DNA of 58,623 nt from Arcicella sp. Its GTDB lineage: Bacteria > Bacteroidota > Bacteroidia > Cytophagales > Spirosomataceae. Position numbers and translations under genes: made by a program. Every line of letters starts with the position of its first letter. Positions within the stretch are counted from its first letter, which is position 1. The stretch covers positions 1 to 58,623 of the forward strand of contig JANXML010000060.1 in NCBI GenBank assembly GCA_025354645.1, written 5' to 3'. Positions 806 through 45,948 of the stretch are shown here, piece by piece. The notes under the pieces are model-generated. The model did no database searches. It worked only from the letters and a program-made list of their open reading frames with translations, and was not told the DNA's origin.

Positions 806-886
806 AGAGTAGAATAGTTAAAGTAGTTAAAGAGTTTTGTTCCAACTTTTTAACTACTTTGATTATTCAACTCTTTAACTTATTCA
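806..886. repeat. Word-repeat hairpin (AGTTAAAG words) between convergent genes
   Basis: The left arm (806-840) carries tandem AGTTAAAG-type words. The right arm (843-886) carries the reverse complement (CTTTAACT, TTTAACTACTTT). The arms touch the stop codons of the two convergent genes (803-805 and 880-882). It could act as a bidirectional terminator. It shares its architecture, not its sequence, with the other word-repeat hairpins in the window. Confidence 0.65.
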
Positions 887-1710
887 GCAAGTTGAAAACT
901 AATTGGCAAAGTAAATTTCACTGCAACCGTTCTACCCGACTGTCTTCCTGGCGACCATTTTGGCATGAGTTTCACCACTCTTTGGGCTTCTTCATCACAA
1001 CCAAAACCAATCCCTTTCACCACATCAACTTTGGAAATATTTCCGTCCTGTCCAACCACAAACTGCATATAAACCTTACCCGTGACCTTCGCATTGACCG
1101 CTGGCGTTGGATAATGAAGGTTTTTTTGTAGGAATTTCAGTAAAGCATTCATGCCACCTGCGAACTCTGGATTTTGTTCGACCGTAATAAAAACTTGATT
1201 TTTTTCTTCTGTTTCAACTGCGACAGGCATTTCAATTTCTTTACCTTTTGTGGCATCTGGATCATCTACGGGAATTTCCATTACCTCTCCATCTTGAGTT
1301 TTATCTCCAATTTTTGCATCAGTATTATTCAATAAATCTTGGTCGGGAATTGGTGGAATTTCTTCTTCAGTATCAACGATTTCCAAATTACTAAAATCAA
1401 TCATTTTAACTTTTACTTCTTCAACTTTTGGAGGTGGAGGAGTTATTGGTTCAATCGGTTTAACAACTTCTTTTGGAGGTTCAATAATGTCCATCACATT
1501 AGCAATTACCACAACTTTCTCTTTACTTTCCACCTTCGCCCAAAGCATAGGCGTAAGCACCGCTAATCCAAAAATACTGATGCCAATCAAAAGAGATTTT
1601 TTGATAACGTTTTGATAATCAGTTCGTAACGAATAAGCTCCGTAGGATTTGTTACGATGTTGGAAGACAATTTCTTCCAATGTTGCAGGGTTTTCTTGGT
1701 GATTTTGCAT
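880..1710 (-). CDS. tonB: TonB energy transducer
   Basis: A 276-residue TonB-family protein that would transmit proton-motive force from an ExbB/ExbD complex to outer-membrane receptors. The N-terminal cytoplasmic part has the Bacteroidota motif RNKSYGAYSLR (residues 19-29). One membrane helix follows (about 39-58), then a proline-rich periplasmic stretch (78-98), an acidic linker, and a C-terminal TonB domain (about 176-274) with PEFAGGM and YPTPAVNAKVTGKVY. The start at 1710 fits the family's N-terminus. It lies downstream of the blaI-exbD-M56 cluster but has its own promoter region, containing a BlaI-type palindrome (1732-1749), after a terminator at 1755-1785. It is therefore probably co-regulated rather than co-transcribed. 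Confidence 0.92.
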   Translation of the reverse strand: MQNHQENPATLEEIVFQHRNKSYGAYSLRTDYQNVIKKSLLIGISIFGLAVLTPMLWAKVESKEKVVVIANVMDIIEPPKEVVKPIEPITPPPPKVEEVKVKMIDFSNLEIVDTEEEIPPIPDQDLLNNTDAKIGDKTQDGEVMEIPVDDPDATKGKEIEMPVAVETEEKNQVFITVEQNPEFAGGMNALLKFLQKNLHYPTPAVNAKVTGKVYMQFVVGQDGNISKVDVVKGIGFGCDEEAQRVVKLMPKWSPGRQSGRTVAVKFTLPISFQLAE

Positions 1711-1731
1711 GATTGTTTATTGTTAAAGATT

Positions 1732-1749
1732 AAACTAATTTTTTAGTTG
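1732..1749. promoter_or_regulatory. Candidate BlaI operator upstream of tonB
   Basis: AAACTAA-TTTT-TTAGTTG, two near-perfect 7-base arms 21 bases upstream of the tonB start codon. It matches the palindrome at the blaI promoter (5218-5235) in arm sequence and spacing. The shared site suggests that the BlaI protein encoded at 4776-5159 also represses tonB. Confidence 0.6.
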
Positions 1750-1754
1750 ATTTG

Positions 1755-1785
1755 ATTTTTAAAAATCCCCACTGGTTTTGTGGGG
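1755..1785 (-). terminator. Rho-independent terminator after the TonB-like pseudogene
   Basis: Read on the minus strand, CCCCAC-aaaacca-GTGGGG is followed by ATTTTT. It lies downstream of the stop at 1850 and would end the blaI/exbD/M56 transcript before tonB. Confidence 0.65.
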
Positions 1786-1787
1786 AA

Positions 1788-1848
1788 AGTAGAACAGGTT
1801 TTCAACCTGTTTCAGAGAACGATGAACAGGTTTCAAACCTGTTCTACT
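1788..1848. repeat. Double palindromic (REP-like) element
   Basis: The outer arms are AGTAGAACAGG (1788-1798) and CCTGTTCTACT (1838-1848). Each half is itself palindromic around AACAGGTT/AACCTGTT. The element starts within two bases of the 3' end of the broken TonB-like gene. It has the form of repetitive extragenic palindromes; no other copy of this sequence is in the window. Confidence 0.7.
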
Positions 1849-1849
1849 T

Positions 1850-2248
1850 TTATTCACTAAGACATATAGTTAGTGGTAAAGTAAAACGACTTCTAACATT
1901 TTTGCCTTTGTATCTTGCAGGAACCCATTTAGAAGACAGTTTCATTACTCTAATTGCCTCTTCATCTACACCCATTCCAACACTTTTTATTATGCTGTAA
2001 TTACTTAATATTCCATCCGTTTCAATAATAAATTCCATGTAAACTTAACCAGAAACATTTGCTCTTTGAGCTGCCTCTGGATACTTCAAATTCTTCTGCA
2101 AAAACTTTCCAAATGCTCCCATACCGCCTTGAAATTCAGCATTTTGGTCTGGTTTTTCAATTATAAGCGTGTCGGATTTTTTATTTTGAGTAAACCCAAC
2201 ATTGATTTTACAGAGAAATAATAACAAAATGATAAGTGATTTTCTCAT
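1850..2248 (-). pseudogene. TonB C-terminal-domain protein interrupted by one in-frame stop
   Basis: One frame of 132 codons from ATG 2246-2248 encodes a signal peptide (about residues 1-20), then a TonB C-terminal domain with NAEFQGGMGAFGKFLQKNLKYPEAAQ, closely resembling the domain of the M56 protein next to it. A TAA at 2045-2047 follows ANVSG. The homologous neighbours read ANITGKVY and AKVTGKVY here, so a Lys AAA has become TAA. After it the same frame continues with VYMEFIIETDG and ends in SRFTLPLTICLSE. No helix-anchored TonB N-terminus is present, so it would be a periplasmic or secreted single-domain protein. It begins one base after the M56 gene's stop and is probably co-transcribed. 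Either a recent pseudogene or an assembly error. Confidence 0.75.
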
Positions 2249-2249
2249 T

Positions 2250-3923
2250 TTATTCCCTCTTTAAAGTAATCACAACCACTCCATCTCTTGCATCTTCTCC
2301 ATATCTCATTACGGCTTTATCACCTTTATAAACTTCCAATTTTTCAATATCTTTTGATTCAATTCCTTTCAATTCGATTTCACTAACCCTTTTTCCGTTC
2401 ATCATATAAATTACATTTTTGGGATTATCGAGACCTGTTTTTGAATTATCAGTAATAACAATATTTCCAAAATTGAAAATAGTTTCATTATCAAACTTAG
2501 AGTCTATAACCGCTGGCAGTTTTGGCATTTCTTCACCATCTTTTTTATTAATTTTAATTTTGGATTCTTCTGTTAATTGAAAATCGATTGGAACAGTAAA
2601 ACGGCTTCTCACAATTCGACCACTTTGTTTGCCAGGAATCCATTTCACTTTTTCTAATACTCTAATTGCTTCTTCATCACATCCATAACCAATACCTTTT
2701 AATGTTTTAATGTCACTTGTTGAACCGTCTGTATTTACGATAAATTGAATATAAACTTTTCCAGTAATATTAGCTTTTTGGGCAGAAACTGGATATTTTA
2801 AATTCTCTTGTAAATATTTTCCGAAAGCCTTCATGCCACCTGGGAATTCAGGATTTTGTTCAACCATACTAAATACTTCTGAACTTCTTTTGATTGGTTT
2901 GGTTGAATCCGCTTGCATCCCCTTCACCTCATCCACCATATCAGGACTAATAATCAATGCCTCAGACAAATCAATATTATCCTTCAATAATGTCTCTGAA
3001 ACGCTTTCAGAAGGCTCTGTAATTACTTTTGCCAAATTTGAATCTGAAATTGCTTCCACTTTTTCCTCAATTTTTGCTAATTCCTTACTCGCCAAAGTTG
3101 CCGATGAAACCACAATCATGAGCATAAAAAGTGGGGCAATTAAGCCGTATTTCATCATGGCAGTTTGATTGGAACGTTCTTTATTTAACATTTTTATTCT
3201 TAATTTTAGTAATGATTGATTAAAGAAATTATTGGTCAAAGGAATGGCTTGCACCCCAAATTGTTCTTGAAATAAAAGCATGGCATACTCTGCTTTTGAG
3301 GTTTCATTGCGGCTGGCAACTTCATCAGCAATAAATTCGTGAATGTGCTTGATTGAGCTTTTGTAAAGATAAACCACAGGATTAAACCAGTTGAAAATCG
3401 CAATTAATTCAAACAACATGACATCAGCAGAATGGAGTTGACGAATATGCACAAATTCGTGTTTCATAATGGTGGAACGATTTTTCAATTCCTTACTCAC
3501 AAACAACACATTAAAGAATGAAAAAGCCTGTTTTGAGTCTTTCTGAACGATTTTACGCTTCATTAATTTACCCAAAAAAACTAAATTTCCCCCAAAACGA
3601 GCAATGCCAATCAGAATCCCGATGATGTAGAAAACCGCCATGAAGTCTCCTAACGTAAGCGTAGGAGCCTGTTCACTTGCTTGCACGTAGAATACTTGCG
3701 GGTCATAAAGCGTGGTGATTGTTTGAGAAATTTGCTCCGTCACAAACCAACTCCGCACCCATTCCGACTGCATCAACGGAATAAAAAACGCCAACGCTGC
3801 CGATGCCACCAAGTAGCCCCGATTGAGGTTAAAGAAGGTTTCTGTACGCAACAAAAGGCGATAAAAACCATAAAACAGAATCAAATAAAGATTCACTTGA
3901 AGGAGGTAGTTGAGCCAGTTCAT
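2250..3923 (-). CDS. M56 (BlaR1-like) metallopeptidase fused to TonB C-terminal domain
   Basis: Starting at MNWLNYLLQ (ATG 3921-3923) the protein has 557 residues. The open frame extends 33 codons further, but these translate the TCGATGTT repeats and are unlikely to be coding. Order of parts: several N-terminal membrane helices; the zinc-peptidase motif HEFVH (about 155-159); a further helix (256-277); a linker; a TonB C-terminal domain (353-450) with PEFPGGM and GKVYIQF; and a tail ending YGEDARDGVVVITLK that resembles a TonB-receptor plug segment. BlaR1-type proteins sense a signal and cleave a BlaI-type repressor, here the likely role given blaI in the same cluster. The TonB domain suggests sensing of, or contact with, outer-membrane receptors; that part is inference. 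Confidence 0.85.
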   Translation of the reverse strand: MNWLNYLLQVNLYLILFYGFYRLLLRTETFFNLNRGYLVASAALAFFIPLMQSEWVRSWFVTEQISQTITTLYDPQVFYVQASEQAPTLTLGDFMAVFYIIGILIGIARFGGNLVFLGKLMKRKIVQKDSKQAFSFFNVLFVSKELKNRSTIMKHEFVHIRQLHSADVMLFELIAIFNWFNPVVYLYKSSIKHIHEFIADEVASRNETSKAEYAMLLFQEQFGVQAIPLTNNFFNQSLLKLRIKMLNKERSNQTAMMKYGLIAPLFMLMIVVSSATLASKELAKIEEKVEAISDSNLAKVITEPSESVSETLLKDNIDLSEALIISPDMVDEVKGMQADSTKPIKRSSEVFSMVEQNPEFPGGMKAFGKYLQENLKYPVSAQKANITGKVYIQFIVNTDGSTSDIKTLKGIGYGCDEEAIRVLEKVKWIPGKQSGRIVRSRFTVPIDFQLTEESKIKINKKDGEEMPKLPAVIDSKFDNETIFNFGNIVITDNSKTGLDNPKNVIYMMNGKRVSEIELKGIESKDIEKLEVYKGDKAVMRYGEDARDGVVVITLKRE

Positions 3924-4025
3924 ATTTTCGATGTTTGGTTTTCGATTTTCGATGTATGGTTTTCGATGTTGGTTTTCGATGTTTGCTTTTTTAACGAACA
4001 TCGAAAACCAATTATCGAACATCGA
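3924..4025. repeat. Word-repeat hairpin (TTTTCGATGTT words) between exbD and the M56 gene
   Basis: Four TTTTCGAT-type words in one orientation (3925-3992) face words in the opposite orientation (3999-4025, GAACATCGAAAACC). One end abuts the start codon of the M56 gene (3923). The other includes the last codons of exbD, whose terminal DVR-stop is itself encoded by GATGTTCGATAA. A further block of the same words (4516-4556) abuts the exbD start codon on its other side. Confidence 0.7.
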
Positions 4026-4515
4026 CTAATTTTTCTTTATCCTCAGCCGTTATCGCCACAATGGCATAATGTTTATTATTGGTAATCGTCATTTCGTCTA
4101 ATAAATCCACCATATTGCGGTATTTTGCTTTGTCAGTTGATTTAATTACGACCGTGAACATATCACCAATTTTACGTTTATAATCAAACAAAACTTGTCG
4201 AATTCCATTGTCTGAAAAGTCGGTTGTATGTACTTCTGGGTTACATGCTCCTTGATAATAATGCACTTTATTGTCTCCATCAATCACTACATTCAAAGAT
4301 TGTGAACATTTAACAGGCGAGCGTAATCCTTCGTCCGTTTTATCAGGCATATTCAGTTGCATCGTTACAGGCTTCATGAGTGATGTTGTAAGCATGAAAA
4401 AAGTAATCAATAAAAAACCCAAATCTACCATCGGAGTCATGTCGATTTTGGTGGATAGCTTGTGGCTACGTTTTTTGCCTTTTGCGGCTTGGTCGGATGC
4501 AGATATTTCAGCCAT
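4012..4515 (-). CDS. exbD: ExbD/TolR-family proton channel subunit
   Basis: A 167-residue protein. The start MAEISASDQ (4513-4515) was chosen because the 28 upstream codons translate repeat sequence. A basic cytoplasmic N-terminus is followed by KIDMTPMVDLGFLLITFFML, one membrane helix (about 28-46) carrying the conserved Asp31 expected for proton use, and a periplasmic ExbD domain. ExbD works with ExbB to energise TonB; no exbB lies in this window, so the partner must be encoded elsewhere. It sits between blaI and the M56-TonB gene on the same strand, which suggests that proton-channel supply is part of the BlaI-controlled set. Word repeats touch both ends of the gene. Confidence 0.9.
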   Translation of the reverse strand: MAEISASDQAAKGKKRSHKLSTKIDMTPMVDLGFLLITFFMLTTSLMKPVTMQLNMPDKTDEGLRSPVKCSQSLNVVIDGDNKVHYYQGACNPEVHTTDFSDNGIRQVLFDYKRKIGDMFTVVIKSTDKAKYRNMVDLLDEMTITNNKHYAIVAITAEDKEKLVDVR

Positions 4516-4556
4516 TGATTTTCGTTGTTTGTTTTTCGATGTTCGATGTTCGGAAA
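4516..4556. repeat. TTCGATGTT word block at the exbD start
   Basis: Repeats of TTTTCGATGTT/TTCGATGTTCG begin directly next to the exbD ATG. Same word as in the hairpin on the 3' side of exbD. No promoter was recognised within it. Confidence 0.55.
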
Positions 4557-5306: not shown

Positions 5307-5307
5307 A

Positions 5308-5463
5308 AATACATTGTTAAGTAATTTACTTCACTTCCCGAAAGTTATTTCTACTTTCGGGAAGTTCAATCCAAATTAACTTCCCGAAAGTAGAAAGAAC
5401 TTTCGAGAAGTGGTATAGTAAATAATTTTTCAAAAATGAAAGCTATTTACTTAACAATGTATT
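5308..5463. mobile_element. MITE-like element with 17-bp terminal inverted repeats
   Basis: AATACATTGTTAAGTAA (5308-5324) is repeated perfectly inverted at 5447-5463. Inside are two hairpins of a shared type, ACTTCCCGAAAGT-N7-ACTTTCGGGAAGT (5333-5365) and its variant (5378-5411). The 156-bp element has no coding capacity. The internal hairpins recur at 49536-49615, but without the terminal repeats. It lies between the terminator and the 3' end of the RidA remnant. Mobility is inferred only from the form. Confidence 0.55.
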
Positions 5464-6405: not shown

Positions 6406-6561
6406 AACAGTTATCAGTAATCAGTGAACGGTTATCAGTAAACCGTAATTAATTACAGGATTAAAATATATTTAAAAATGAATAAATGAAACCTAAAAAT
6501 CGTAAATGTCATTTTGTTAACTGATAACTGATAACTGCTAACTGATAATTGCTAACTGTTT
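6406..6561. repeat. Word-repeat hairpin (TATCAGT words) between the RMD1-like gene and proA
   Basis: The left arm (6406-6444) holds GTTATCAGTAATCAGT-type words. The right arm (6516-6561) holds the opposite orientation (AACTGATAACTGATAACTG). The loop is about 70 bases. The left end is next to the RMD1-like start codon; the right end overlaps the proA stop codon (6560-6562). The same words recur at 32302-32418 and in the dnaX linker. Confidence 0.7.
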
Positions 6562-7831
6562 ACCTCACTTGTCCATTACCCGTAACAACCCATTTTTCAG
6601 TCACTAATTTTTCTAAGGCAAAAGGTCCTCTTGCGTGAAGTTTTTGAGTGGATATTCCAATTTCAGCCCCTAATCCAAATTGTCCTCCATCCGTGAATCG
6701 TGTTGAAGCGTTGGTATAAACCGCTGCGGCATCAATTTCTTGAATGAACCTCTCGCAATATTCTTGATTCTGAGAAATAATAGCCTCAGAGTGTCTGGAC
6801 GAATATTTATTGATATGAGCAACGGCTTCTTGAAATCCAGTTACTACTTTCACAGAACACTTATAATCTAAAAATTCTCTGCCAAAATCGTCTATTTTGG
6901 CTTTTTGAAGCGTAGGATATTTAATTTCTGAGAAAATTTTATACGAAATTTCATCAGCAAAAACTTCTACATTCCATTTCAAAAAACCATCTTGAAGCAT
7001 TGGTAGAAAGGCTTCTGCAATGGCTTCATCAACCACAATCGTATCTAAAGCATTACAAACGGATGGTCTTGAAACCTTGGCATTTACTACAATATCTGCT
7101 GCTTTTTGTAAATCTGCGGTTGCCTCGACGTAGGTATGACACACGCCTGCTCCAGTTTCAATCGTGGGAACGAGTGAATGCTTACGAACAAACTGAATTA
7201 AAGATTCTGAACCCCGAGGAATAATTAAATCAACGTAACGAGTAGCGGTCAAAAGTTCTTTTACCAACTTACGGTCGGGTGGGAGAAGGGTGATACAATT
7301 TGTATCAACGCCAAATTCTTTAAGCACATTGTGAATCAAATTTACTAAAAAAGAATTTGTATCAAAAGCATCCGAACCGCCCCTGAGAACAACCGCATTT
7401 CCAGAGCGTAAACACAGGGCGGTAACATCAACGGTCACATTTGGACGTGCTTCATAAATCACCCCAACAACGCCCATTGGTACGGCTATCTTTTTGATTT
7501 TTAAGCCATTATCCAATTCACGTTCCAAAATAATTTGTCCAGAAGGGTCGGTTAAATTAGCTACTTCACGCATACTTTCTGCTAAATCTTGAATGCGTGA
7601 TTCAGTTAATTCCAAGCGGTCATATTTGGGGTCAGCCAAATCCATTCTGATTAAATCTTTCTGATTCTCAGCAATAATTTCTTTTGTATTCTCAATCAAA
7701 ATTTCAGCCAAACGATTTAGAATTCCCTTTTTTTGAGTATCATTTAGCCGTCTAACTTCGGCTGAAGCAATATGTGTTTTTTCTAAAAGCGGTATGATTG
7801 TTTTAGGAAGTTCTAAGGTTTCCAATTCCAT
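6560..7831 (-). CDS. proA: Glutamate-5-semialdehyde dehydrogenase (gamma-glutamyl phosphate reductase)
   Basis: A 423-residue protein, the usual length. It catalyses the NADPH-dependent reduction of glutamyl-5-phosphate to glutamate semialdehyde in proline synthesis, in the cytoplasm. Seen: the aldehyde-dehydrogenase fold signature GVVGVIYEARPNVT (121-134), VVLRGGSDAF (147-156), DLIIPRGSESLI (201-212), and the catalytic cysteine in SRPSVCNALDT (Cys259). No proB lies beside it in this window. It has no operon partner here: a terminator-flanked cluster lies upstream and a repeat hairpin downstream. Confidence 0.95.
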   Translation of the reverse strand: MELETLELPKTIIPLLEKTHIASAEVRRLNDTQKKGILNRLAEILIENTKEIIAENQKDLIRMDLADPKYDRLELTESRIQDLAESMREVANLTDPSGQIILERELDNGLKIKKIAVPMGVVGVIYEARPNVTVDVTALCLRSGNAVVLRGGSDAFDTNSFLVNLIHNVLKEFGVDTNCITLLPPDRKLVKELLTATRYVDLIIPRGSESLIQFVRKHSLVPTIETGAGVCHTYVEATADLQKAADIVVNAKVSRPSVCNALDTIVVDEAIAEAFLPMLQDGFLKWNVEVFADEISYKIFSEIKYPTLQKAKIDDFGREFLDYKCSVKVVTGFQEAVAHINKYSSRHSEAIISQNQEYCERFIQEIDAAAVYTNASTRFTDGGQFGLGAEIGISTQKLHARGPFALEKLVTEKWVVTGNGQVR

Positions 7832-10307: not shown

Positions 10308-10805
10308 TTGTATTTTTACAATAGCTTAAATTTGATAGATTTAAGGCTTTTAAAAGAAAAGTATATATTTGTTATTATTGAAATTATCAAAAAATACTCA
10401 AACGGAGAAGTAACAGTTGTTTGGCAACCTTCAAAATGTATTCATTCTGCGATATGTTTTCGTGGACTTCCGCAAGTTTTCGACCCACGCAAACGCCCGT
10501 GGGTAATGATGGAAAATGGGCAAACTAACGAGGTAATTAATCAAGTAAAAGGCTGTCCATCAGGGGCTTTAAGTTATTTTATGGACAATGAAGAGAACCA
10601 TGAAAGCCAAGAGCCAATTAATACAATTGTAGAAGTTTTGGAAAATGGACCTTTGCTGATTTATGGAAATTTGAAAGTAAAAGATAAAGCAGGCAATGAG
10701 TCATTGAAAAGCCAGACAACCGCATTTTGCCGTTGCGGTGCATCGAAAAACAAACCATATTGTGATGGTTCACACGTGCGAGTGGCTTTTGAGGATAAGT
10801 TTTAG
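10308..10805 (+). CDS. YjdI-like plus CDGSH iron-sulfur protein, start codon unclear
   Basis: The open frame has 165 codons from a TTG at 10308. Two domains: a YjdI-type mono-cluster domain (KKYSNGEVTVVW, residues 28-38, cysteines 44, 50 and 83 with CIHSAICFRGLPQVF) and a C-terminal CDGSH domain with Cys141, Cys143, Cys152 and His156 (CRCGASKNKPYCDGSH), which binds a 2Fe-2S cluster. Homologues normally start a few residues before KKYSNGE. Here no ATG or GTG exists in that region: the codons are ATT, GAA, ATT, ATC. Initiation at a TTG or ATT, or loss of the start, are all possible. Cytoplasmic; role probably in redox or cluster handling. Confidence 0.75.
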   Translation: MYFYNSLNLIDLRLLKEKYIFVIIEIIKKYSNGEVTVVWQPSKCIHSAICFRGLPQVFDPRKRPWVMMENGQTNEVINQVKGCPSGALSYFMDNEENHESQEPINTIVEVLENGPLLIYGNLKVKDKAGNESLKSQTTAFCRCGASKNKPYCDGSHVRVAFEDKF

Positions 10806-10996
10806 GTATGAATTATGAGATATTAGTTATGAGGTATAAATTATGACATAAAATTGCTTGATAAATATTAGAATATATATGCTTAAAATTGAACTTAAAA
10901 TTACCAAGTCTGATTGTTGATACCTCATACCTCATACCTCATACCTCATACCTCATACCTCATACCTCATACCTCATACCTCAACCTCATACCTCA
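10803..10996. repeat. Word-repeat hairpin (GGTATGAGGT words) between convergent genes
   Basis: The left arm (10803-10850) has TAGGTATGAATTATGAG-type words beginning with the TAG stop of the CDGSH gene. The right arm (about 10917-10996) has some nine tandem TACCTCA/CATACCTCA words and ends with the TGA stop of the CotH-like gene. The same words form the larger array at 23487-23836. Confidence 0.75.
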
Positions 10997-17573: not shown

Positions 17574-19354
17574 TCAATAATCATAATCCAATCCCAAGAC
17601 ACTTCTCAATTCGTTTAAAGCAGGGTTTTTCTCGGCTAAAAACTTGAATTTATCGGCTTGGGTGTAGATTAATGTAGTATTTTCCTGTTCTGCAACCACT
17701 ATTTCTAAATGGATGGTTGAATTCTGTAATTCTCGACGTAAAAAGTTTAAAACCTCCGTTCGTAAAGTCGTAGTAAGAAGGTCAATTTGAATTTCATTAT
17801 CTACTTCCAGATGAATGGTTGTGCCATTCAACGTAAATTTTCTATTCAAAATCACAAACTCACTAAAACGTCTTCTTATTTCTAAATCTTTAATTAATCG
17901 ACCCCAAACGGGTTGCAATTCAACAACTGTAAATTGCTTATTCTGTTGAATCACAGGCTCTTGCACTTGCGAAACGGTTTGTTGCGTTGACGCTTGAACA
18001 ATCGGTTTCCCAATCGTTGCCGTACTCCTTAGTTTACCTATTGAAGGGGATTGGGGGGTTATGGGATTTTGGATTTGTGGTTCAGTTGTTGGTACTTGGT
18101 CGGGAGGCGTTCCTTCATTACTTATCGGAAAAATAGTTACTGGTGTTTCGTTATTCGTTGTAACTGGTTTATTGTTAACTGATAACTGTTCACTGGTAAC
18201 TGAAACTACTTTCCCCCGCCGTCGCCCTCCGTGGCGGGTAATGTGGCTAAGTTCAATACGTTGGCGATGTTTACCAATTTCAAGAGACAGATTTCTACGT
18301 GCAGTTTTTGGTTTTTAGCAGCTTTATAATTCAAATCACAACTCGCTCCTATACTTAATGCCGATACTAAGAATGAATACTGTGCCGCCGCTGATTGTTC
18401 TAAATATTTCTTCTGAACAGACTCCGAAACCTGTAGTAATCTGACAGTTACGGGATCTTTGCAAACCAAAATATTTCTAAAATGCTCTAATAATCCAACG
18501 ATAAATTGATGTCCGTCAAAACCCTTCTTTAAAATTTCATCGAATAATAAAAACGAATCTGAAATCTTAGAATTTAAAAGTGCATCTGTCATTTTGAAGT
18601 AATAATCATAATCCAGAATGTGCAGATTATCAAGCACTTCGGCGTATTTCAAGACGTTATCTTTCGAGAAAGTAACATTCAAATCGAACATCGAAAGGGC
18701 ATCACGAAGACCACCATCTGCTTTTTGAGCAATCAATTCCAAGGCTTCTAAATCTGCAATGATACCTTCTTTTGCCGCAATTTGCGATAAATGCGAAGTC
18801 ATGTCACTGACTTGAATTCGATTAAAATCAAATATTTGACAACGGGACAGAATCGTGGGAAGTATTTTATGCTTTTCAGTGGTCGCCAAAATAAAAATGG
18901 CGTAAGAAGGAGGCTCCTCCAAAGTCTTCAAAAAGGCATTAAAAGCACTCGTTGAAAGCATGTGAACCTCATCAATGATATAAATTTTATACTTCCCAGA
19001 TTGCGGAGGATATCGCACTTGGTCAATCAAATTCCGAATATCATCAACTGAGTTATTGGAAGCCGCATCTAATTCGTGAATATTGAAAGAAGCATTATTT
19101 TGAAAAGAAGTACATGAATCGCAGATACCACAGGCTTCTGCCTCTTGCGTGAGGTTTTCGCAGTTGATGGTTTTGGCTAAAATCCTTGCACAAGTGGTTT
19201 TTCCAACGCCCCGAGGACCACAAAATAAAAAAGCTTGAGCTAAATGATTGGTACGAATAGCATTTTTGAGGGTTGTGGTGATATGCGATTGCCCGACCAC
19301 AGAATCAAATAATTGTGGGCGATATTTACGGGCTGAAACTACAAAATTTTCCAT
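17574..19354 (-). CDS. dnaX: DNA polymerase III gamma/tau with probable programmed -1 frameshift
   Basis: Clamp-loader ATPase. From ATG 19352-19354 the zero frame gives a 382-residue gamma-like product with Walker A GPRGVGKT (46-53), zinc-binding cysteines (65, 75, 78, 81), DEVH (128-131) and the clamp-loader collar, ending at TAG 18206-18208. The tau C-terminal domain (17574-17966, VWGRLIKDLEIRRRFSEFVI ...) is in the -1 frame, which stays open from the stop to the end. Just before the stop, G-GGA-AAG (18209-18215) is a canonical -1 slippery heptamer, with GGAGGG 9 bases upstream. A shift there would give a 593-residue tau. E. coli dnaX makes both forms by -1 frameshifting at A-AAA-AAG. The alternative is a plain frameshift mutation. 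Confidence 0.85.
18137..18238 (-). promoter_or_regulatory. Candidate recoding signal in dnaX
   Basis: In mRNA order: CCCGCC (18238-18233), Shine-Dalgarno-like GGAGGG (18230-18225), GGCGGG (18220-18215, pairs with CCCGCC), slippery GGGAAAG (18215-18209), TAG stop. Downstream come repeats of the AGTTATCAGTTAAC word, and AGTTAC ... GTAACT could pair across about 60 bases. The GC-rich stretch is unlike the surrounding AT-rich sequence. Slippery site and stop are certain; the stimulatory roles are inferred. Confidence 0.6.
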
Positions 19355-19357
19355 ACG

Positions 19358-19365
19358 CAAATGTA
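19358..19365 (-). promoter_or_regulatory. TAnnTTTG element three bases before the dnaX ATG
   Basis: TACATTTG-cgt-ATG. If it is a -7 element, the transcript would be leaderless or nearly so. No TTTG was found 19-20 bases upstream, so the call is weak. Confidence 0.3.
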
Positions 19366-20647: not shown

Positions 20648-20651
20648 ATTT

Positions 20652-20955
20652 TTACTGTAGCTCGAAGTGGCACTTCGAGAATGGACAAACAATGTGACTA
20701 AGATTCTCGAAGTGGCACTTCGAGAATGGACAAACAATGTGACTAAGATTCTCAAAGTGGCACTTTGAGAATGGAAAAACAATTTGACTCAGATTCTCGA
20801 AGTGGCACTTCGAGAAAGGACAAACAATGTGACTTAGATTCTCAAAGTGCCACTTCGATAATGGAAAAACAATTTGACTTAGATTATCGAAGTGCCACTT
20901 CGAGAATGGAAAAACAATTTGACTTAGATTCTCGAAGTGCCACTTCGAGCAACAG
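20652..20955. repeat. Array of seven 19-bp palindromes at exact 45-bp period
   Basis: The palindrome CTCGAAGTGGCACTTCGAG or a close variant starts at 20661, 20706, 20751, 20796, 20841, 20886 and 20931, each exactly 45 bases apart. The 26-base spacers are nearly identical (AATGGACAAACAATGTGAC...). The central base is G in the first four units and C in the last three. Substitutions in the arms of units 3 and 5 are partly compensated (unit 3 changes both arms). The array fills the gap between marC and the aminotransferase gene. Because 45 is a multiple of 3, both strands have open frames through it, but these look non-coding. Confidence 0.9.
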
Positions 20956-20957
20956 TA

Positions 20958-22579: not shown

Positions 22580-23509
22580 ATGTGGCAAAGCTATCTAAAA
22601 AATTTCAAAAGCTACCTCACTTTGGAGCGTTCTCTTTCTGAAAATTCGATTGAGGCATATTTGCGTGATGTCGGAAAACTCTGGGAATATCTTGAAATTG
22701 CGGGTGAATTGGATATTCAGCCAGAAACCGTTACCGATAAACACATCTTTAATTTCTTTTATTATATTGGTGAATTAGGACTTGAAGCCACCACACAGGC
22801 TCGTGTGCTGTCGGGTTTGAAGGCATTTTTTAAATATCTTTTGTTGGAAGACTTAATCAAAACTGACCCAATGGCATTGATTATGTCACCCAAAATAGGA
22901 CGAAAATTACCTGCTACTTTAACTTTTCCAGAAATTGAAAAAGTATTGGATGTTATTGACCTTTCTACCAATGAAGGTACTCGTAATCGGGCGATTTTAG
23001 AAGTACTTTATAGCTCGGGATTGCGAGTTTCGGAGTTGGTGGAAATGAAATTAACGGAATGTTTTTTCGATATTGGGTTTCTGAGAATTATTGGAAAAGG
23101 CGATAAAGTCAGACTCGTTCCTATCGGCAGAGATGCTTTACATTACATCAAAATTTATTTGGAAAGCGTGAGAAGTCAGCAAAAAATTAAACCCGAAGCC
23201 GAGAACTATGTTTTCTTAAATAGGAGGGGGAACAAACTATCTCGGGTAATGATATTCCTGATTATCAAGGACTTAGTGGCTCGTGCGGGTATTCAAAAAA
23301 ATATTAGCCCACATAGTTTTCGGCATTCCTTTGCAACCCATCTAATCGAAGGCGGGGCAGATTTACGAGCAGTTCAAGAAATGTTGGGGCATGAATCTAT
23401 CACAACAACGGAGATTTATACGCATTTGGATAGAGAATATTTACAGCAAACGATTGTCGAATTTCATCCGAGGAGCAAGAAGAAAGAGGTCTTAGGTATG
23501 AGGTTTTAG
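22580..23509 (+). CDS. xerD: Tyrosine recombinase XerD
   Basis: A 309-residue site-specific recombinase with an N-terminal SAM-like DNA-binding domain (about 1-105) and the catalytic domain carrying the full set Arg149, Lys173, His245, Arg248, His271 and Tyr280 (SGLRVSEL, GKGDKVR, HSFRHSFATHL, LGHESITTTEIYTH). It resolves chromosome dimers at dif together with a partner recombinase. No integrase-type context is seen, so it is the housekeeping enzyme. The last residues (VLGMRF) and the TAG stop are encoded by the first units of the 14-bp repeat array, which has grown into the end of the gene. Confidence 0.93.
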   Translation: MWQSYLKNFKSYLTLERSLSENSIEAYLRDVGKLWEYLEIAGELDIQPETVTDKHIFNFFYYIGELGLEATTQARVLSGLKAFFKYLLLEDLIKTDPMALIMSPKIGRKLPATLTFPEIEKVLDVIDLSTNEGTRNRAILEVLYSSGLRVSELVEMKLTECFFDIGFLRIIGKGDKVRLVPIGRDALHYIKIYLESVRSQQKIKPEAENYVFLNRRGNKLSRVMIFLIIKDLVARAGIQKNISPHSFRHSFATHLIEGGADLRAVQEMLGHESITTTEIYTHLDREYLQQTIVEFHPRSKKKEVLGMRF

Positions 23510-23836
23510 GTATGAGGTTTTAGGTATGAGGTTTTAGGTATGAGGTCTTAGGTATGAGGTTGTAGGTTTGAGGTTGTAGGTATGAGGTTTTAGGTATGAG
23601 GTTTTAGGTATGAGGTTTTAGGTATGAGGTTGTAGGTATGAGGTCTTAGGTATGAAGTTGTAGGTATGAGGTTGTAGGTATGAATCACAGGGTTATAAAA
23701 TCAAAATATGAAATAAAAACTTTAAATCAAAGACAACTACCTCATACCTACGACCTCATAATTCATACCTGAATTTATCTACGACCTCATACCTCATACC
23801 TACAACTTCATACCTACGACCTCATAATTCACGCCT
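23487..23836. repeat. Large word-repeat hairpin (14 x 14-bp TAGGTATGAGGTTN, then inverted words)
   Basis: About fourteen tandem copies of TAGGTATGAGGTTT and variants fill roughly 23494-23689. After a spacer of some 45 bases, words of opposite orientation follow (CATACCTACGACCTCATA and variants, 23732-23836). The array starts inside the xerD 3' end, and its last words stop four bases from the crp-like stop codon. It could fold into a hairpin more than 100 bp long. The same words occur at 10803-10996. Confidence 0.9.
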
Positions 23837-32103: not shown

Positions 32104-32304
32104 ATGAATCTTGAACAATTAGGTAATATTATTCGTGAAAGAAGAAACGAACTCTCGTTGAGTCAAGAAAATCTTAGTAATAAAAGTGATGTTGCCATCA
32201 AAACGATTCATTCCGTTGAATTGGGTAAAGCTAATCCTTCTGTCAAAACGCTGGAGAAAATTTTAGATAACTTAAACTTACAAATAATTGTAGTAAACAA
32301 GTGA
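32104..32304 (+). CDS. Small XRE-family helix-turn-helix protein
   Basis: A 66-residue protein made almost entirely of one XRE/Cro helix-turn-helix (LGNIIRERRNELSLSQENLSNKSDVAIKTIHSVELGKANPSVKTLEKIL). Its form is that of HipB-type antitoxins and small phage-like repressors. No hipA or other toxin gene follows; the next gene is nagB. It may be an orphan regulator or antitoxin remnant. Its TGA stop is the first element of a word-repeat hairpin. Confidence 0.8.
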   Translation: MNLEQLGNIIRERRNELSLSQENLSNKSDVAIKTIHSVELGKANPSVKTLEKILDNLNLQIIVVNK

Positions 32305-32418
32305 CAGTTATCAGTAAACAGTTACCAGTTAACAGTCAGAATTTGATTCATTAATAATCATGGTATTTTGTAACTGTTTACTGCTCACTGTTTACTGCTC
32401 ACTGCTTACTGATAACTG
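32302..32418. repeat. Word-repeat hairpin (TATCAGT/AACAGTT words) between the XRE gene and nagB
   Basis: Left arm 32302-32338 (CAGTTATCAGTAAACAGTT type), right arm 32371-32418 (AACTGTTTACTGCTCACTG type), loop about 32 bases. The left end includes the TGA stop of the XRE gene; the right end lies eight bases from the nagB ATG. Words are shared with 6406-6561 and the dnaX linker. Confidence 0.75.
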
Positions 32419-32425: not shown

Positions 32426-34327
32426 ATGGAACAAGCTATTTCTTACGAGAGAATTCCAACAAATATTTATGCAGATTCTGATGCTGCCTCACGAGCCATC
32501 GCTCACGAGATTGCGGGCATTATTCGCAAACGTGCTTCCGAAGAAAAACCTGCCGTTCTGGGTTTAGCAACGGGTTCTTCGCCTAAAAAAGTCTATTCAG
32601 AACTCATCAGAATGCACCGTGAAGAAGGATTGAGTTTTCAGAATGTCGTTACCTATAATCTTGACGAATATTACCCGATGGAACCCGATGCCGTTCAGAG
32701 TTACGTGCGGTTTATGCGTGAACAACTTTTCGACCATGTGGATATTCCCGCAGGAAACTGGCATTTGCCCGATGGAACTTTGCCCTTAGATAAATTAGCT
32801 GAATTTTGTAAAGATTATGAAACCCAAATCGAAAGATATGGTGGATTAGATTTTCAGTTATTAGGAATTGGACGAAACGGTCACATTGGTTTTAATGAAC
32901 CTGGCTCACTCGTAAACTCTCGTACACGCTTAATGACGCTTGATTTAACCACTCAAATTGATGCAACGGGTGATTTTGGGGGGTTAGCGAAAGTCTCGAA
33001 AAAGGCAATCACGATGGGCGTTCAGAAAATCATGGAAGCTAAAAGAGTGGTGTTGTGTGCTTGGGGAGAACATAAAGCCGCTAACGTTGCCCGTGCGGTG
33101 GAAGGTTCTGTAACTTCCGATGTGCCAGCCTCTTATCTGCAATTACACGAAAATGCTTCCTTTATTATTGACACATCGGCAGCCGCACAATTGACTCGTA
33201 TGCGAACGCCGTGGATGGTGGATGCGGTGACGTGGGACAGACCAATGATTAAAAAAGCGGTTACCTATTTAGCTTTAACCGTGAAGAAACCCGTCTTGAA
33301 ATTAACCAGTTCCGATTATAACGAAAATGGACTTTCGGACCTTTTGGCATTGTATGGTCAGGCGTATGATATTAACATTGAGGTCTTTAATTATTTGCAA
33401 CATACCATCACGGGTTGGCCAGGGGGCAAGCCAAATGCGGATGATTCCAACCGTCCTGAGCGTGCATATCCAGCTAAAAAGAAAGTGGTTATTTTCAGTC
33501 CGCACCCCGATGATGATATTATTTCCATGGGTGGAACTTTCCAGCGTTTGGTTGACCAAGGACACGAAGTCCACGTAGTGTATCAAACTTCGGGAAACAT
33601 CGCCGTTGCGGATGATGAAGCCTTGCGTTTTGCGGAATTTGTGGTTGATTTTAACGAAAGATTTGATGCAAACAATCCGAAAGCCAATCGGATTTATAAA
33701 GAAGCCGCAAAATTTTTGAAAGCCAAAAAGGATTCAGAAATTGATACGGATGAAGTACGATTTATTAAAGGATTAATTAGAAGAGGAGAAGCCAAAAATA
33801 CGTGTCGTTACGTGGGCATTAAAAAGGAAAATATGCACTTTTTGGATATGCCTTTTTATGAAACGGGAACGATTCAGAAAAACCCAATCGGCAAAGAAGA
33901 TGTGGATGTGGTTATGGCAAAAATCGAGGAATTACAACCTCATCAAATTTATGCTGCTGGTGACTTGGCTGACCCACATGGAACGCATAAAGTGTGTTTA
34001 GACGCAATCATGGAGGCTGTTCAGAAATTAAGACACCGTGAATACATGAATAATTGTTGGGTTTGGTTATACAAAGGAGCATGGCAAGAATGGGAGATTG
34101 ACCAAATAGAAATGGCAGTTCCAATGTCACCCGACCAAGTTTTGAAGAAGCGTTATGGTATTTTCAAGCATCAATCACAGAAAGACGGCGTGCCATTTCA
34201 AGGAACGGATGCCCGTGAGTTTTGGCAACGTGCCGAGGATAGAAATAGTAATACTGCTAATCTTTATAATGCTCTTGGGCTTGCAGAGTATCAAGCAATG
34301 GAGGCATTTGTGCGGTGGCGGTTTTGA
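32426..34327 (+). CDS. nagB: Glucosamine-6-phosphate deaminase fused to a PIG-L deacetylase domain
   Basis: A 633-residue two-domain protein. Residues 1-270 are NagB: LATGSSPKKVY, YNLDEYY, GIGRNGHIGFNEPGS with the catalytic Asp/His motif, and GVQKIMEAKRVVLCAWG. Residues about 350-620 are a PIG-L/LmbE-type domain: FSPHPDDDIISMGG (zinc ligands H, D, D) and DLADPHGTHKVC. NagB converts glucosamine-6-phosphate to fructose-6-phosphate and ammonia. PIG-L domains remove N-acetyl groups from sugars, so the fusion could deacetylate and deaminate amino sugars in sequence. This fusion is known in Bacteroidota. No nag transporter or nagA is beside it. Confidence 0.92.
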   Translation: MEQAISYERIPTNIYADSDAASRAIAHEIAGIIRKRASEEKPAVLGLATGSSPKKVYSELIRMHREEGLSFQNVVTYNLDEYYPMEPDAVQSYVRFMREQLFDHVDIPAGNWHLPDGTLPLDKLAEFCKDYETQIERYGGLDFQLLGIGRNGHIGFNEPGSLVNSRTRLMTLDLTTQIDATGDFGGLAKVSKKAITMGVQKIMEAKRVVLCAWGEHKAANVARAVEGSVTSDVPASYLQLHENASFIIDTSAAAQLTRMRTPWMVDAVTWDRPMIKKAVTYLALTVKKPVLKLTSSDYNENGLSDLLALYGQAYDINIEVFNYLQHTITGWPGGKPNADDSNRPERAYPAKKKVVIFSPHPDDDIISMGGTFQRLVDQGHEVHVVYQTSGNIAVADDEALRFAEFVVDFNERFDANNPKANRIYKEAAKFLKAKKDSEIDTDEVRFIKGLIRRGEAKNTCRYVGIKKENMHFLDMPFYETGTIQKNPIGKEDVDVVMAKIEELQPHQIYAAGDLADPHGTHKVCLDAIMEAVQKLRHREYMNNCWVWLYKGAWQEWEIDQIEMAVPMSPDQVLKKRYGIFKHQSQKDGVPFQGTDAREFWQRAEDRNSNTANLYNALGLAEYQAMEAFVRWRF

Positions 34328-42589: not shown

Positions 42590-45500
42590 CTTTTTTTGAC
42601 AGTTTTGCGATTAACTTTTTGAGTTTATTTTCTTGACCAGCATCAGAATGTTCTTCTATGTATTCTTCGCTCAAGGGAACAGTATCTTGGTCGTTGATGA
42701 GTTTTTTCCCGTCAATCAATTTAGCAAAAATGTAATAAAGACCTGGCACGATTAAAACTCCAAAAACGGTTCCGAAAATCATACCGCCCATCGCCGACGA
42801 ACCAATGGTTTTGTTACCTACTGCCCCTGCTCCATGAGCCCGAACCAATGGAATCAGACCAGCTATAAAAGCGAAAGAAGTCATCAAAATGGGTCTGAAA
42901 CGTTCTTTGGCACCTTCGATAGCTGCTTCTAAAACACTTAATCCTTCGTTGCGTCTTTGTACGGCAAATTCTACAATCAAAACGGCATTTTTACCCAAAA
43001 GTCCCGTAAGCATGATGAGTCCGATTTGAGCGAAAACGTCATTATTCAATCCCATCATTTTCAGCATTAAAAAAGAACCAAAAATACCTGGTGGCAAGGA
43101 AAGGATAATGGCAAATGGTAAAACGAAGCTTTCATATTGTGCTGCCAAAACCAAATAAACAAAGAATATTACGACTAAGAAAATAATAATGGCTTCGTTA
43201 CCTCGGCGAGCTTCGTCATAACTTAGTCCTTCCCAAGCAATATCGTAGCCTTTGGGTAAAGTTGCTTCGGCTACTTCACGAATAACTCGAATGGCATCGC
43301 CCGAAGTATAGCCAGGGGCAGGGACGCCGTTGATAAGAGCCGATGTGTATAAGTTGTATCGGGCAATTTCGTTTGGTCCTTGTGTTTTTTTGATGCTCAT
43401 AAATGCCGAATAAGGCACCATTTCGCCTTTGTCGTTTTTGACAAACATTTTTAAAATATCATCAGGATCTTTTCTAAACGCAGGGTCGGCTTGGGTATAA
43501 ACCTTGTAATAGTTATTGAAACGAATAAAACCTTGCTCGTAGGTACTACCAATCATGATGTTTAGGTTTTCCATGGCATCTCCCACAGATACTCCTTTTT
43601 GCATCGCTAACAGGTTGTTTACGACCAGCTCGTACTGCGGATAATTGGCAGAATAAAAAGTGAATAAACCTGTAATCTCTTTACGTTTTTTTAATGCTGC
43701 TACAAAGTCTTGGTTTACTTGGTCAAATTTTTGATAATCTACTTCGCTACCTTTATCCAACAATCGTAATGCAAAACCAGATGAAGCACCATATCCTGGT
43801 ACTGCTGGGGGTTCAAAAAATTCGATATTAGCACCCATATTTTGGGTTTTTTCTTCCAACTCTTCCATAATTTGCTTTACGGATTCGTGTCTTTCAGACC
43901 AATCTTTTAGGTTAATCAAGCAAGTACCAGCATTAGAACCACGCCCTTCGGTTAGAATCTCATAACCTGCCATAGCCGTTACTGACTTTACGCCTTCTAC
44001 TGATTTAGCAATTTTTTGTAGTTCGAGCGAAACAGTGTTGGTACGTTCGAGCGTAGTACCAGGCGGCGTTTGAATGATGGCATAGATTTGTCCTTGATCT
44101 TCGCCTGGAATAAAACCTGCGGGCAAAATAGAACTCATTCCAAAAATACCAAATGCAAATACTATCAATACTGCAAATGTCAGCACTCTACGATTGACGA
44201 TAACCGTCAAAAACTTGGTGTATTTACCCAATAACCATTCAAATTTACTGTTGAACCAATCTATGAACATATTGATTGGTGTCTTTTTGCGGGCGTGTCC
44301 GTGTTCATTTTTCAGAATCATCGCACACAAAACTGGTGTAAGTGTGAGTGCAACAACTCCCGAAAGTACAATTGCTGAGGCCATTGTGATGGAGAATTGT
44401 CTGTAAAGTACGCCTACTGGACCCGACATAAAAGCAACTGGGACAAATACCGCTGTCATAATCAGGGTAATGGCAATAATTGCCCCACTGATTTCGTCCA
44501 TTACTTTTTTAACGGCTTGATAGGGTGTCAGGTGGTCTTCGGACATCTTTACGTGAACCGCCTCGACTACCACAATGGCATCATCGACCACTACTCCAAT
44601 AGCCAATACCAAGGCAAAAAGCGTAACAAGGTTGATACTAATACCAAAAAGCTGCATAAACATGAACGCTCCAATGAGCGATACTGGCACCGCCAATGTA
44701 GGAATCAGCGTTGAACGCCAATCGCCCAAAAAGAGAAATACCACCAACGAAACCAATATAAAAGCCTCCAAAAGGGTGTGCAATACTTGGTCTATCGAAG
44801 CGTTTACAAAATTTGAAACGTCATAGTTGATTTCGTAATCCATTCCTGGAGGGAAATCCTTTTTCATTTCTTCTAATTTTGCCTTCACGTCAGCAATAAT
44901 CTTATTAGAATTTGTGCCAGGATTTTGCTTCAATACCAACGAAGCCGCAGGATAACCATCTTTATTGGTATAAATATCAACAAACTCACTACCCACTTCT
45001 ACATTGGCTACGTCTTTCAATTTTAAAATTTCACCCTCTGGATTAGCCCTGATGATAATTTCCTTGTACTGTTCGGGCTTGTTGTACCAACCCTGATAAG
45101 TAAAAACGTATTCGAGCGATTGGGCAGTTTTACCAGAACTTAATCCTACACGACCTGGGCGACCCAGTACACTTTGTTGTTCAATAGCTTTAAGTACTTC
45201 ATCAGCAGAAACATTATAAGCCCTCATTCTATCGGGATTGAGCCAAACACGCATGGCAAACGCCCTATTTCCAATAATTTCTGAACGCCCCACACCACTA
45301 ATACGATACAGCTCTGGTACAATTTTATTGTCGGCATAAGTAAACAAGAATTTTTGGTCAAAGTCTTTTACTGTACTAAAAAAATTGACGTACATCAACA
45401 TACTTGGCTGCACAGGCGTAATGATAATACCTTCTCGCTGAACTAAAACGGGTAAATTAGCCCAAACTTGATCTACCCGAGATTTTACCCGAGTTGCTGC

Positions 45501-45806
45501 AATGGTGGGATCGAGACCTGGTTCAAACACAATTTGTACGGTAGCCTCGCCAGCACTGGTGGCATCAGACATCATGTACTGCATACCTGGCACACCGTTA
45601 ATGGCACGTTCCATGATAACGAGCGTGGACTTAACCAAGGCATCAGCATTGGCTCCTGGAAACGAGATGAAAATATTTACCCTCGGTGGGGCAATTTCGG
45701 GAAACTGGGAAATTGGTCGGGTAGTAATAGCCAATATTCCCAAAAAGACGATTGCCAGCGACATGGCAATTGCCAAGACTGGTCTTTGTATGAATTTACT
45801 AAACAT
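42579..45806 (-). CDS. RND multidrug efflux pump (AcrB/HAE1 family)
   Basis: From MFSKFIQRPVLAIAM (45804-45806) the protein has 1075 residues. Twelve membrane segments with two large periplasmic loops. Seen: N-terminal FFxxRP-type motif (FSKFIQRPVLA), the proton-relay pair in LAIGVVVDDAIVVVE of TM4, GFIPGEDQG, and PPGIFGSF and GLLGKNAVLIVEFA in the second half. The charged pattern fits hydrophobic-drug pumps rather than metal pumps of the CusA class. It begins 48 codons into a longer frame whose extra residues have no family match. A word-repeat hairpin separates it from the adaptor gene. Confidence 0.94.
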   Translation of the reverse strand: MFSKFIQRPVLAIAMSLAIVFLGILAITTRPISQFPEIAPPRVNIFISFPGANADALVKSTLVIMERAINGVPGMQYMMSDATSAGEATVQIVFEPGLDPTIAATRVKSRVDQVWANLPVLVQREGIIITPVQPSMLMYVNFFSTVKDFDQKFLFTYADNKIVPELYRISGVGRSEIIGNRAFAMRVWLNPDRMRAYNVSADEVLKAIEQQSVLGRPGRVGLSSGKTAQSLEYVFTYQGWYNKPEQYKEIIIRANPEGEILKLKDVANVEVGSEFVDIYTNKDGYPAASLVLKQNPGTNSNKIIADVKAKLEEMKKDFPPGMDYEINYDVSNFVNASIDQVLHTLLEAFILVSLVVFLFLGDWRSTLIPTLAVPVSLIGAFMFMQLFGISINLVTLFALVLAIGVVVDDAIVVVEAVHVKMSEDHLTPYQAVKKVMDEISGAIIAITLIMTAVFVPVAFMSGPVGVLYRQFSITMASAIVLSGVVALTLTPVLCAMILKNEHGHARKKTPINMFIDWFNSKFEWLLGKYTKFLTVIVNRRVLTFAVLIVFAFGIFGMSSILPAGFIPGEDQGQIYAIIQTPPGTTLERTNTVSLELQKIAKSVEGVKSVTAMAGYEILTEGRGSNAGTCLINLKDWSERHESVKQIMEELEEKTQNMGANIEFFEPPAVPGYGASSGFALRLLDKGSEVDYQKFDQVNQDFVAALKKRKEITGLFTFYSANYPQYELVVNNLLAMQKGVSVGDAMENLNIMIGSTYEQGFIRFNNYYKVYTQADPAFRKDPDDILKMFVKNDKGEMVPYSAFMSIKKTQGPNEIARYNLYTSALINGVPAPGYTSGDAIRVIREVAEATLPKGYDIAWEGLSYDEARRGNEAIIIFLVVIFFVYLVLAAQYESFVLPFAIILSLPPGIFGSFLMLKMMGLNNDVFAQIGLIMLTGLLGKNAVLIVEFAVQRRNEGLSVLEAAIEGAKERFRPILMTSFAFIAGLIPLVRAHGAGAVGNKTIGSSAMGGMIFGTVFGVLIVPGLYYIFAKLIDGKKLINDQDTVPLSEEYIEEHSDAGQENKLKKLIAKLSKKDEK

Positions 45807-45830
45807 ATTTTTTGAGTTTTCTATGAAAGG

Positions 45831-45948
45831 AAATCGGCTTTCGGCTGTCAGCAATTGGCTGTCAGCAATAAGCTATTGAACCTTTTTTATTTCAATGAAT
45901 TATCGTTTGCCGACAGCCAAAAGCTGACCGCCGACTGCCGATTGCCTA
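45831..45948. repeat. Word-repeat hairpin (GGCTGTCAGCAA words) inside the RND operon
   Basis: The left arm (45831-45874) has TCGGCTTTCGGCTGTCAGCAA-type words. The right arm (45907-45948) has the opposite orientation (GCCGACAGCCAAAAGCTGACC) and abuts the TAG stop of the adaptor gene (45946-45948). It lies between adaptor and pump genes of one operon and may set their relative expression. Confidence 0.7.

Follow-up and report, generated by a model that had tools for sequence, protein, structure and literature searches.

Several elements of the pattern described below are already known: direct repeats of heptamers, arrays that mix different heptamers, convergent pairs in Xanthomonas and motif-class switching in the stem of a Nostoc intron. 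Intergenic heptamer repeats of Xanthomonas (GGGAATC) and Nostoc (GGGGA(C/T)T) lie nearer the neighbouring open reading frame (ORF) on their 5′ side, some overlapping a stop codon, and two Xanthomonas genomes hold 70 and 75 convergent heptamer pairs able to form stem-loops (PMC4692102). Direct repeats of TAACTGA have been described from Beggiatoaceae, Cyanobacteria and five Bacteroidetes; they are intergenic, show 7-nucleotide (nt) indels between strains and stand in the TAACTGA orientation before start codons, and MacGregor also described mixed heptamers in Microcystis and some Bacteroidetes (PMC4679880). In the P6b stem of the Nostoc trnL group I intron, the class of 7-nt motif has been replaced repeatedly while a similar stem was kept (PMC4476775). 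Here we describe imperfect intergenic hairpins made of facing arrays of heptamer words in a 58,623-nt contig from the genome of a freshwater bacterium, Arcicella sp. (JANXML010000060.1, assembly GCA_025354645.1), the whole of which was analysed and is called the window. They were followed through this genome (G000, a 5.36-Mb draft of 392 contigs), seven genomes of the same genus (G001–G007) and one of another genus (G008).

The Arcicella arrays are like the Xanthomonas heptamers in their tandem 7-nt intergenic units, their convergent stem-loop pairs and a G-rich strand that starts nearer the 5′ gene. The Xanthomonas and Nostoc repeats, however, are described as one G-rich word class, studied as a G-quadruplex, with few pairs in Nostoc (PMC4692102), whereas Arcicella has several words per genome, mostly non-quadruplex-like, with species dialects and arms that differ together. 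The words found are CAGTNAN, KAGGTNT, TYGRTRT, a GGC-type and TGGTTNN, none of which is the quadruplex word GGGANTN, itself not searched for; only a TAGGGRT-type word comes near it. TAACTGA, the complement strand of TCAGTTA, is present in Arcicella as one word among several, but the published repeats are described as direct, with one inverted case (BOGUAY) and no predicted RNA structure, whereas the Arcicella pairs face each other. The Nostoc P6b stem differs in being one intron locus with two classes, compared with many intergenic loci and more classes here. A search of one open-access library turned up no earlier account of arrays that face each other genome-wide, are spelled in species dialects and switch word on both arms together, and it is this combination that is new.

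A preliminary description of the window had reported, at seven gaps, tandem words next to one gene end and the same words reversed next to the other. These facing arrays are present at all seven, and the folding energies of the gaps lie at z −4.9 to −11.5 relative to 60 dinucleotide shuffles per gap on both strands. Six of the hairpins have a 7/14/21-nt period; the one at 795–885 is built mainly of 8–9-nt words. No Rfam family reaches its gathering score within the window. We then sampled the window and 40 contigs taken at even steps (457 kb), giving each of 239 gaps of 40–1500 bp a palindrome score and a period-7 score, each compared with 40 dinucleotide shuffles. The palindrome score is above all 40 shuffles in 99 gaps, the period-7 score in 43 and both in 36, and chance palindromes are thereby ruled out as a general account. 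Within 43 palindromes of the first sample with arms of at least 20 nt, the letter match at lags of 7, 14, 21 and 28 is 0.43, 0.44, 0.42 and 0.37, compared with 0.22–0.32 at other lags.

A stricter heptad rule, applied to 200 palindromes over all these genomes, retains 52, and these are the base of the distance, T-tract and G/C counts below. The same rule set to periods of 4, 5, 6, 8, 9, 10 and 11 passes 4, 1, 0, 21, 8, 10 and 13 palindromes, the 21 at period 8 marking a limit on the heptad rule. By genome, the rule is passed at 24/239 gaps in G000, 10/129 in G005, 14/164 in G007, 2/8 in G004, 1/8 in G003, 1/25 in G001, 0/29 in G002 and 0/23 in G008. Two window hairpins fall outside the 24, that at 795–885 by its period and that at 3924–4025 through a called M56 start placed too far upstream. 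Facing heptamer arrays are a genome-wide feature of this Arcicella-like genome.

As the preliminary description had it, word sequences differ between loci; they also differ between species. Counts are whole-genome matches on both strands, one long array yielding several matches, to patterns picked after the sequences had been inspected; because G002, G003, G004 and G006 are drafts of 460–520 contigs, their counts may be low. Three units of CAGTNAN match 160 times in G000, 161 in G002, 268 in G004 and 423 in G007, and 1, 3, 4 and 0 times in G005, G003, G006 and G001. The GGC-type word gives 240 matches in G005, 63 in G000, 42 in G002, 32 in G006, 26 in G003, 11 in G004, 8 in G007 and 4 in G001, and the TGGTT-type 61 in G007, 3 in G005 and none in the other members of the genus. 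For KAGGTNT the counts are 79 in G007, 52 in G000, 26 in G005, 2 in G004, 1 in G003 and 0 in G001, G002 and G006; for TYGRTRT they are 65 in G000, 58 in G002, 27 in G004, 10 in G007, 1 each in G001 and G003 and 0 in G005 and G006. Words written backward as controls give 0–4 matches in the genus, except TGGTT in G007 (39) and the GGC-type in G005 (13). The TAACTGA-type word lies at 69 + 50 places in the Arcicella genome with at most one mismatch to TAACTGATAACTGA, its backward control at 0. Several word classes thus coexist in one genome. Families outside the genus have counts of their own, such as 266 for the GGC-type in G026 and 266 for CAGTNAN in G049. Backward controls are abundant in G013, G028, G009, G011, G155, G310 and G338, so further heptamer words probably exist.

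Both arms of a locus carry one word class, and where the word differs between species they differ together. In the comparisons that follow, arms were taken as best-pairing segments, a choice that favours own-arm pairing. Three gaps were compared between G000 and G005, with flanking proteins 83–94% identical and shuffle maxima of 11.2–12.8. At the DUF155–aldehyde dehydrogenase gap, where the flanking proteins are 94% identical, both arms are spelled with CAGTTAT in one species and with TGGTTAY in the other; own arms pair at 21.2 and 28.8, arms across species at 6.8–8.2, and equivalent arms of the two species score 6.0–6.6 when compared. The gap before the TonB_C gene shows own-arm values of 26.6 and 17.6 and cross-species values of 5.6–6.0, and the pump gap 25.6 and 18.6 compared with 10.0–11.2. 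At the CDGSH–CotH gap, the arms of G004 and G007 pair with their own partners at 23.0 and 38.0 and with each other's at 7.0–8.0, while G000 pairs with both at 12.6–26.2. The joint change of spelling points to unusually fast, two-sided evolution of non-coding DNA. It also offers a natural system in which stem arms differ together between close species, in countable words and at many loci, and so a test bed for whether paired stems evolve by compensatory mutation, template switching or replacement.

Our tentative explanation, to which we give somewhat under an even chance, is that these are intergenic quasi-palindromes of facing heptamer arrays with quick turnover at the DNA level by slippage and arm-to-arm copying. 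Each arm would grow and shrink in whole words by replication slippage; the locus would fold back, and template switching would copy one arm onto the other, carrying a new word across, with growth halting at coding sequence or at a start-site region. Both the creation and the repair of hairpins by template switching are documented, and one event suffices to rewrite an arm from its partner with pairing kept (PMC8794818). Such switching, the growth mechanism put forward in the preliminary description, predicts that both arms differ together between species, as they do. Mirrored unit order is a less clear trace of copying: it is seen at 7/32 loci when at most 10 of 200 shuffles may reach it, and above all 200 at 1/32, in a test with arm borders fitted to the observed order and one arm shuffled, and at 20/32 loci in a laxer test that also shuffles the 14-nt flank and leans to significance. 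Template switching alone, by our reasoning, would yield neither period-7 arrays nor a fixed polarity, and the latter would call for a further source of asymmetry, such as fold-back priming restricted to G-rich 3′ ends. Arm-to-arm copying and the origin of the polarity are the parts that we infer; the period of 7, the joint difference of the arms, the polarity and the contact with stop codons are observed. At some loci, selection may also act on the finished hairpin as RNA beside a stop codon.

The words tested in the genus have a fixed polarity. Among 395 Bacteroidota genomes, facing pairs of the CAGT word 20–50 nt apart are inward 119 times (32 genomes) and outward twice (2 genomes), the inward matches overlapping within loci, with 24 in G000 and 20 in G291 that are partly near-identical copies. 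Seven word patterns, all written with the G-richer strand forward, give 22 inward pairs and 0 outward in the examined stretches of the genus and G008. In 42 of the 52 heptad hairpins G outnumbers C in the 5′ arm, and in 6 the reverse holds. G/C-skewed arrays start nearer the gene 5′ of their G-rich strand in 44/62 cases (p 0.0013), which amounts to 30/41 in gaps with one orientation and 14/21 in gaps with both (p 0.19), and to 22/27 where the nearest gene end is a start and 22/35 where it is a stop. The polarity agrees with that stated for the Xanthomonas and Nostoc heptamers and with the TAACTGA orientation before starts, a match that suggests a common rule with a single cause to be sought. 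It is not absolute for every word, since GTCANTN, seen only as a backward control and lacking G/C skew, gives facing pairs at 29 against 8 in the 395 genomes.

A process that would produce this polarity directly is telomere-like addition of G-rich heptamers, by an enzyme or from a template, to 3′ ends at intergenic breaks, followed by end joining, with facing arrays arising without any arm-to-arm copying and the species dialect mirroring a template. It predicts inward G-rich polarity, one word on both arms and genome-wide dialects, and 30 of the 41 arrays from one-orientation gaps do run away from the nearer gene. Against it, several words are in use at once in one genome, mirrored unit order at some loci needs arm-to-arm copying, and the GTCANTN result lowers its probability further. 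While it fits the polarity best of the readings, it is otherwise unsupported, and we regard it as very improbable. The same holds for its broadest form, a long shot in which one unrecognised process lays G-rich heptamers inward from gene edges in several phyla with a genome-specific word and then joins them. Were that true, CAGT, TAGGT, TCGATG, GGC, TGGTT, Xanthomonas GGGAATC and Nostoc GGGGATT would be dialects of one process, and a template change would rewrite the word across a genome.

Several observations weigh against turnover by slippage and arm-to-arm copying. Because these are strand-symmetric processes, template switching accounts for the co-switching arms but not for the polarity, and inward ratios of 119:2 and 22:0 are not predicted. 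Many loci of one genome draw on the same word classes, so that the preliminary description went too far in treating words as local; the words return in other families as well, and a purely local process leaves this without explanation. Species that share the CAGT word cross-pair at 13.2–27.2, which can exceed their own pairing. G000, for one, pairs its own arms at 21.2, whereas its left arm pairs with the right arm of G004 at 23.0 and with that of G007 at 25.8. In such cases the shared word is enough to explain the pairing, and locus-specific copying is not visible. Finally, at the convergent gap L118 18215–18371 and its orthologues in G002, G003, G004, G005 and G007, a palindrome stands above shuffles in 6/6 species examined although it is made of at least four unrelated sequences (a TCGATG type, a TTGGTTACTGG type, a REP-like type and another), which looks like selection.

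Selection of this sort forms a serious rival, above all at convergent gaps, though on balance we think it unlikely as the overall account. It holds that a hairpin in RNA after a stop or before a start is what is kept, affecting the release of ribosomes, the 3′ ends of RNAs or the stability of mRNAs, with any pairing sequence sufficing and the words free to drift. Position relative to genes speaks partly for it. The gene caller behind the distances places stops exactly but starts only roughly, and it overlooks some genes, the CDGSH gene and the small one at 32104 among them; some of the contexts and distances are therefore in error. On the stop side, heptad hairpins lie at a median of 2 nt from the gene, within 5 nt in 27/54 cases and within 15 nt in 41/54, and the stop codon is at least partly in an arm in 20/54, compared with 24/180 for other palindromes, whose stop-side median is 21 nt. 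The start side is less close, with a median of 29.5 nt, 8/50 within 5 nt and 20/50 within 15 nt. In the 44 gaps of up to 600 bp, the heptad hairpin takes up a median fraction of 0.79 of the gap. As had been suggested, heptad hairpins lie nearer a gene end than if placed at random within their gap (44 gaps, mean rank 0.388, Kolmogorov–Smirnov p 0.0004); other palindromes show no such tendency (130 gaps, mean 0.500, p 0.61). Of 28 tandem gaps that could be measured, 27 have the heptad hairpin closer to the stop side. REPs within 15 nt of a stop codon have also been reported to lower translation (PMC12306157, citing earlier work). However, other palindromes share the preference for the stop side in 60/80 tandem gaps, so the bias is not special to heptad hairpins.

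Further features of the heptad hairpins argue against RNA-level selection, and against termination in particular. In G000, G005 and G007 they show no preference for a gene context, with 8/101 divergent, 8/93 convergent and 32/338 tandem gaps, the divergent count including at least one case, window 32305–32418, that is probably tandem with a small gene missed by the caller. Other palindromes in the same gaps follow the terminator pattern, at 11 divergent, 42 convergent and 85 tandem. A T-rich tract after the stem is rare, at 4/54 stop-side heptad cases compared with 36/180 for other palindromes. Wobble on the transcribed strand, which would be a sign of selection on RNA, gives no clear signal and shows little excess, G-U and A-C mismatches being nearly equal (41 and 32 in tandem gaps, 20 and 14 in others). 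Several orthologous gaps lack a significant palindrome, and in others only some of the species have an intact hairpin. In G003 and G006, the DUF155–aldehyde dehydrogenase gap (L140 and L139) carries about 800 extra bases, with its CAGT array as a one-sided remnant. It is hardly credible that the hairpins are simply intrinsic terminators of the ordinary kind or palindromes that arose by chance in AT-rich gaps. Other palindromes are terminator-like in context (42/93 convergent gaps), and a few of the 52 heptad calls resemble ordinary terminators (L179 1809, L188 8623, L148 6695), but the 36 gaps above all shuffles on both scores, the few T-tracts, and a context with neither convergent enrichment nor divergent depletion exclude such terminators as a general account.

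The genomes also contain possible agents of dispersal, and mobile palindromes like REP/REPIN or MITE elements, moved in trans by a Y1 transposase and later blurred by slippage, are an alternative source that we consider improbable. The resemblance lies in intergenic palindromes, some near stop codons, in genomes with Y1 transposases (PMC12306157); the Arcicella genome has 6 Y1_Tnp (PF01797) matches, and a unit moving whole would keep one polarity. Sharing goes beyond words at some loci, with a 27-nt block common to L150 and the xerD gap and an identical 20-nt non-word block at L121 4124–4143 and L127 4648–4667, on opposite strands beside TCGATG-type hairpins in different gaps; exchange between loci therefore occurs. 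Unlike REP/REPIN, however, the Arcicella arms are word arrays with unrelated loops, and sharing is limited to words and a few longer blocks. Heptad loops of at least 25 nt in G000 have a longest exact match of 12 nt over 153 pairs, within the 10–15 nt of shuffled sets, which rules out one mobile element with a common loop and bears out the earlier statement that no single such element lies behind all loci. Y1_Tnp counts do not follow abundance either, G001 having 6 matches with few or no heptad words and G003 and G006 having 3, and families of REP-like palindromes with conserved sequence in the same genomes look different. Nor do all loci match one known repeat family, although repeats of this kind occur in other bacteria. 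As loops are unrelated, T-tracts rare and context flat, neither one mobile element nor ordinary terminators explain the hairpins.

Slippage with arm-to-arm copying, limited by coding sequence, remains the explanation that we prefer. The seven window hairpins are given here with their best-pairing arms. Hairpin 1 (795–885) lies between the convergent ORF 419–805 and TonB_C gene 880–1710; its best ungapped arms, 795–836 and 844–885, are 83% complementary, and its GTTAAAG-type words cover the stop codons of both genes. Hairpin 2 (3924–4025) runs from the exbD stop, which it covers, to the M56 start, with TCGATGT/TTTTCGA words and arms at 3942–3974 and 3993–4025 (85%). Hairpin 3 (6406–6563) stretches from the stop of an aldehyde dehydrogenase-family gene to the start of a DUF155 gene, its arms at 6406–6446 (CAGTNAN) and 6520–6560 (TAACTGA) being 78% complementary around a 73-nt loop. 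Between the convergent Fer4_19/CDGSH and CotH genes, hairpin 4 (10795–10996) has TAGGTAT/ATGAATT words on the left and about 11 copies of ATACCTC on the right, with arms at 10795–10846 and 10939–10990 (79%) and both stop codons in or beside words. Hairpin 5 (23486–23831) separates the convergent xerD and cNMP-binding regulator genes, and its arms at 23637–23679 and 23784–23826 are 91% complementary. The C-terminal residues of XerD and the xerD stop are encoded within the left array, which has about 14 copies of GAGGTTTTAGGTAT, and the right array is a degenerate ATACCTACGACCTC. The best named match of this XerD is from Arcicella aurantiaca, at 92% identity, records very near the analysed genome possibly having been left out. 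Hairpin 6 (32292–32418) reaches from the small + strand gene 32104–32304 towards the start of a glucosamine-isomerase-like gene at 32426, with CAGTNAN words on the left, ACTGTTT on the right and arms at 32305–32339 and 32384–32418 (86%). Hairpin 7 (45828–45948) occupies the gap from the stop of an HlyD-type adaptor gene to the start of an AcrB-type pump gene; its arms at 45828–45868 and 45907–45947 are 83% complementary, with GGCTGTC/AGCAATT words on the left and GACAGCC on the right.

Two arrays in the window are single. The TCGATGT array at 4516–4556 (+ strand) had been taken as part of the hairpin at 3924–4025; it stands instead on the other side of exbD, with its G-rich strand directed away from that gene. 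A CAGT/TAACTGA-type array at 18161–18207 (− strand) borders the stop of a clamp-loader gene of DNA polymerase III (18206–19360), and its G-rich strand is likewise directed away from the gene. Alignments of relatives to the M56 ORF begin at residue 31–34 in six genomes and at 17 in G001, and those to the exbD ORF at 27–29 in G005, G007 and G008, at 20 in G001 and at 15 in G004, with only a C-terminal piece aligned in G002. The M56 frame from about 3923 reads MNWLNYLL and the exbD frame from about 4515 reads MAEISASD. The predicted real starts, judged by homology, are thus near 3923 and 4515, and arrays therefore abut the starts of both genes.

Other repeats in these genomes are of different kinds. 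Between the MarC-like and aminotransferase genes, 20648–20957 holds about 6.4 copies of a 45-nt unit with the inner palindrome CTCGAAGTGGCACTTCGAG, which is not a heptad array; related sequence lies at L120 12084–12298, a stretch with many matches in G005. REP-like palindromes of conserved sequence (AACAGGTTTTCAACCTGTT, ACTTCCCGAAAGT and TAGACCACAGATTT) occur in the window at 1786–1850, 5332–5412 and 49549–49601 and also at L118 13807–13960, the last with many matches in G004 and G007.

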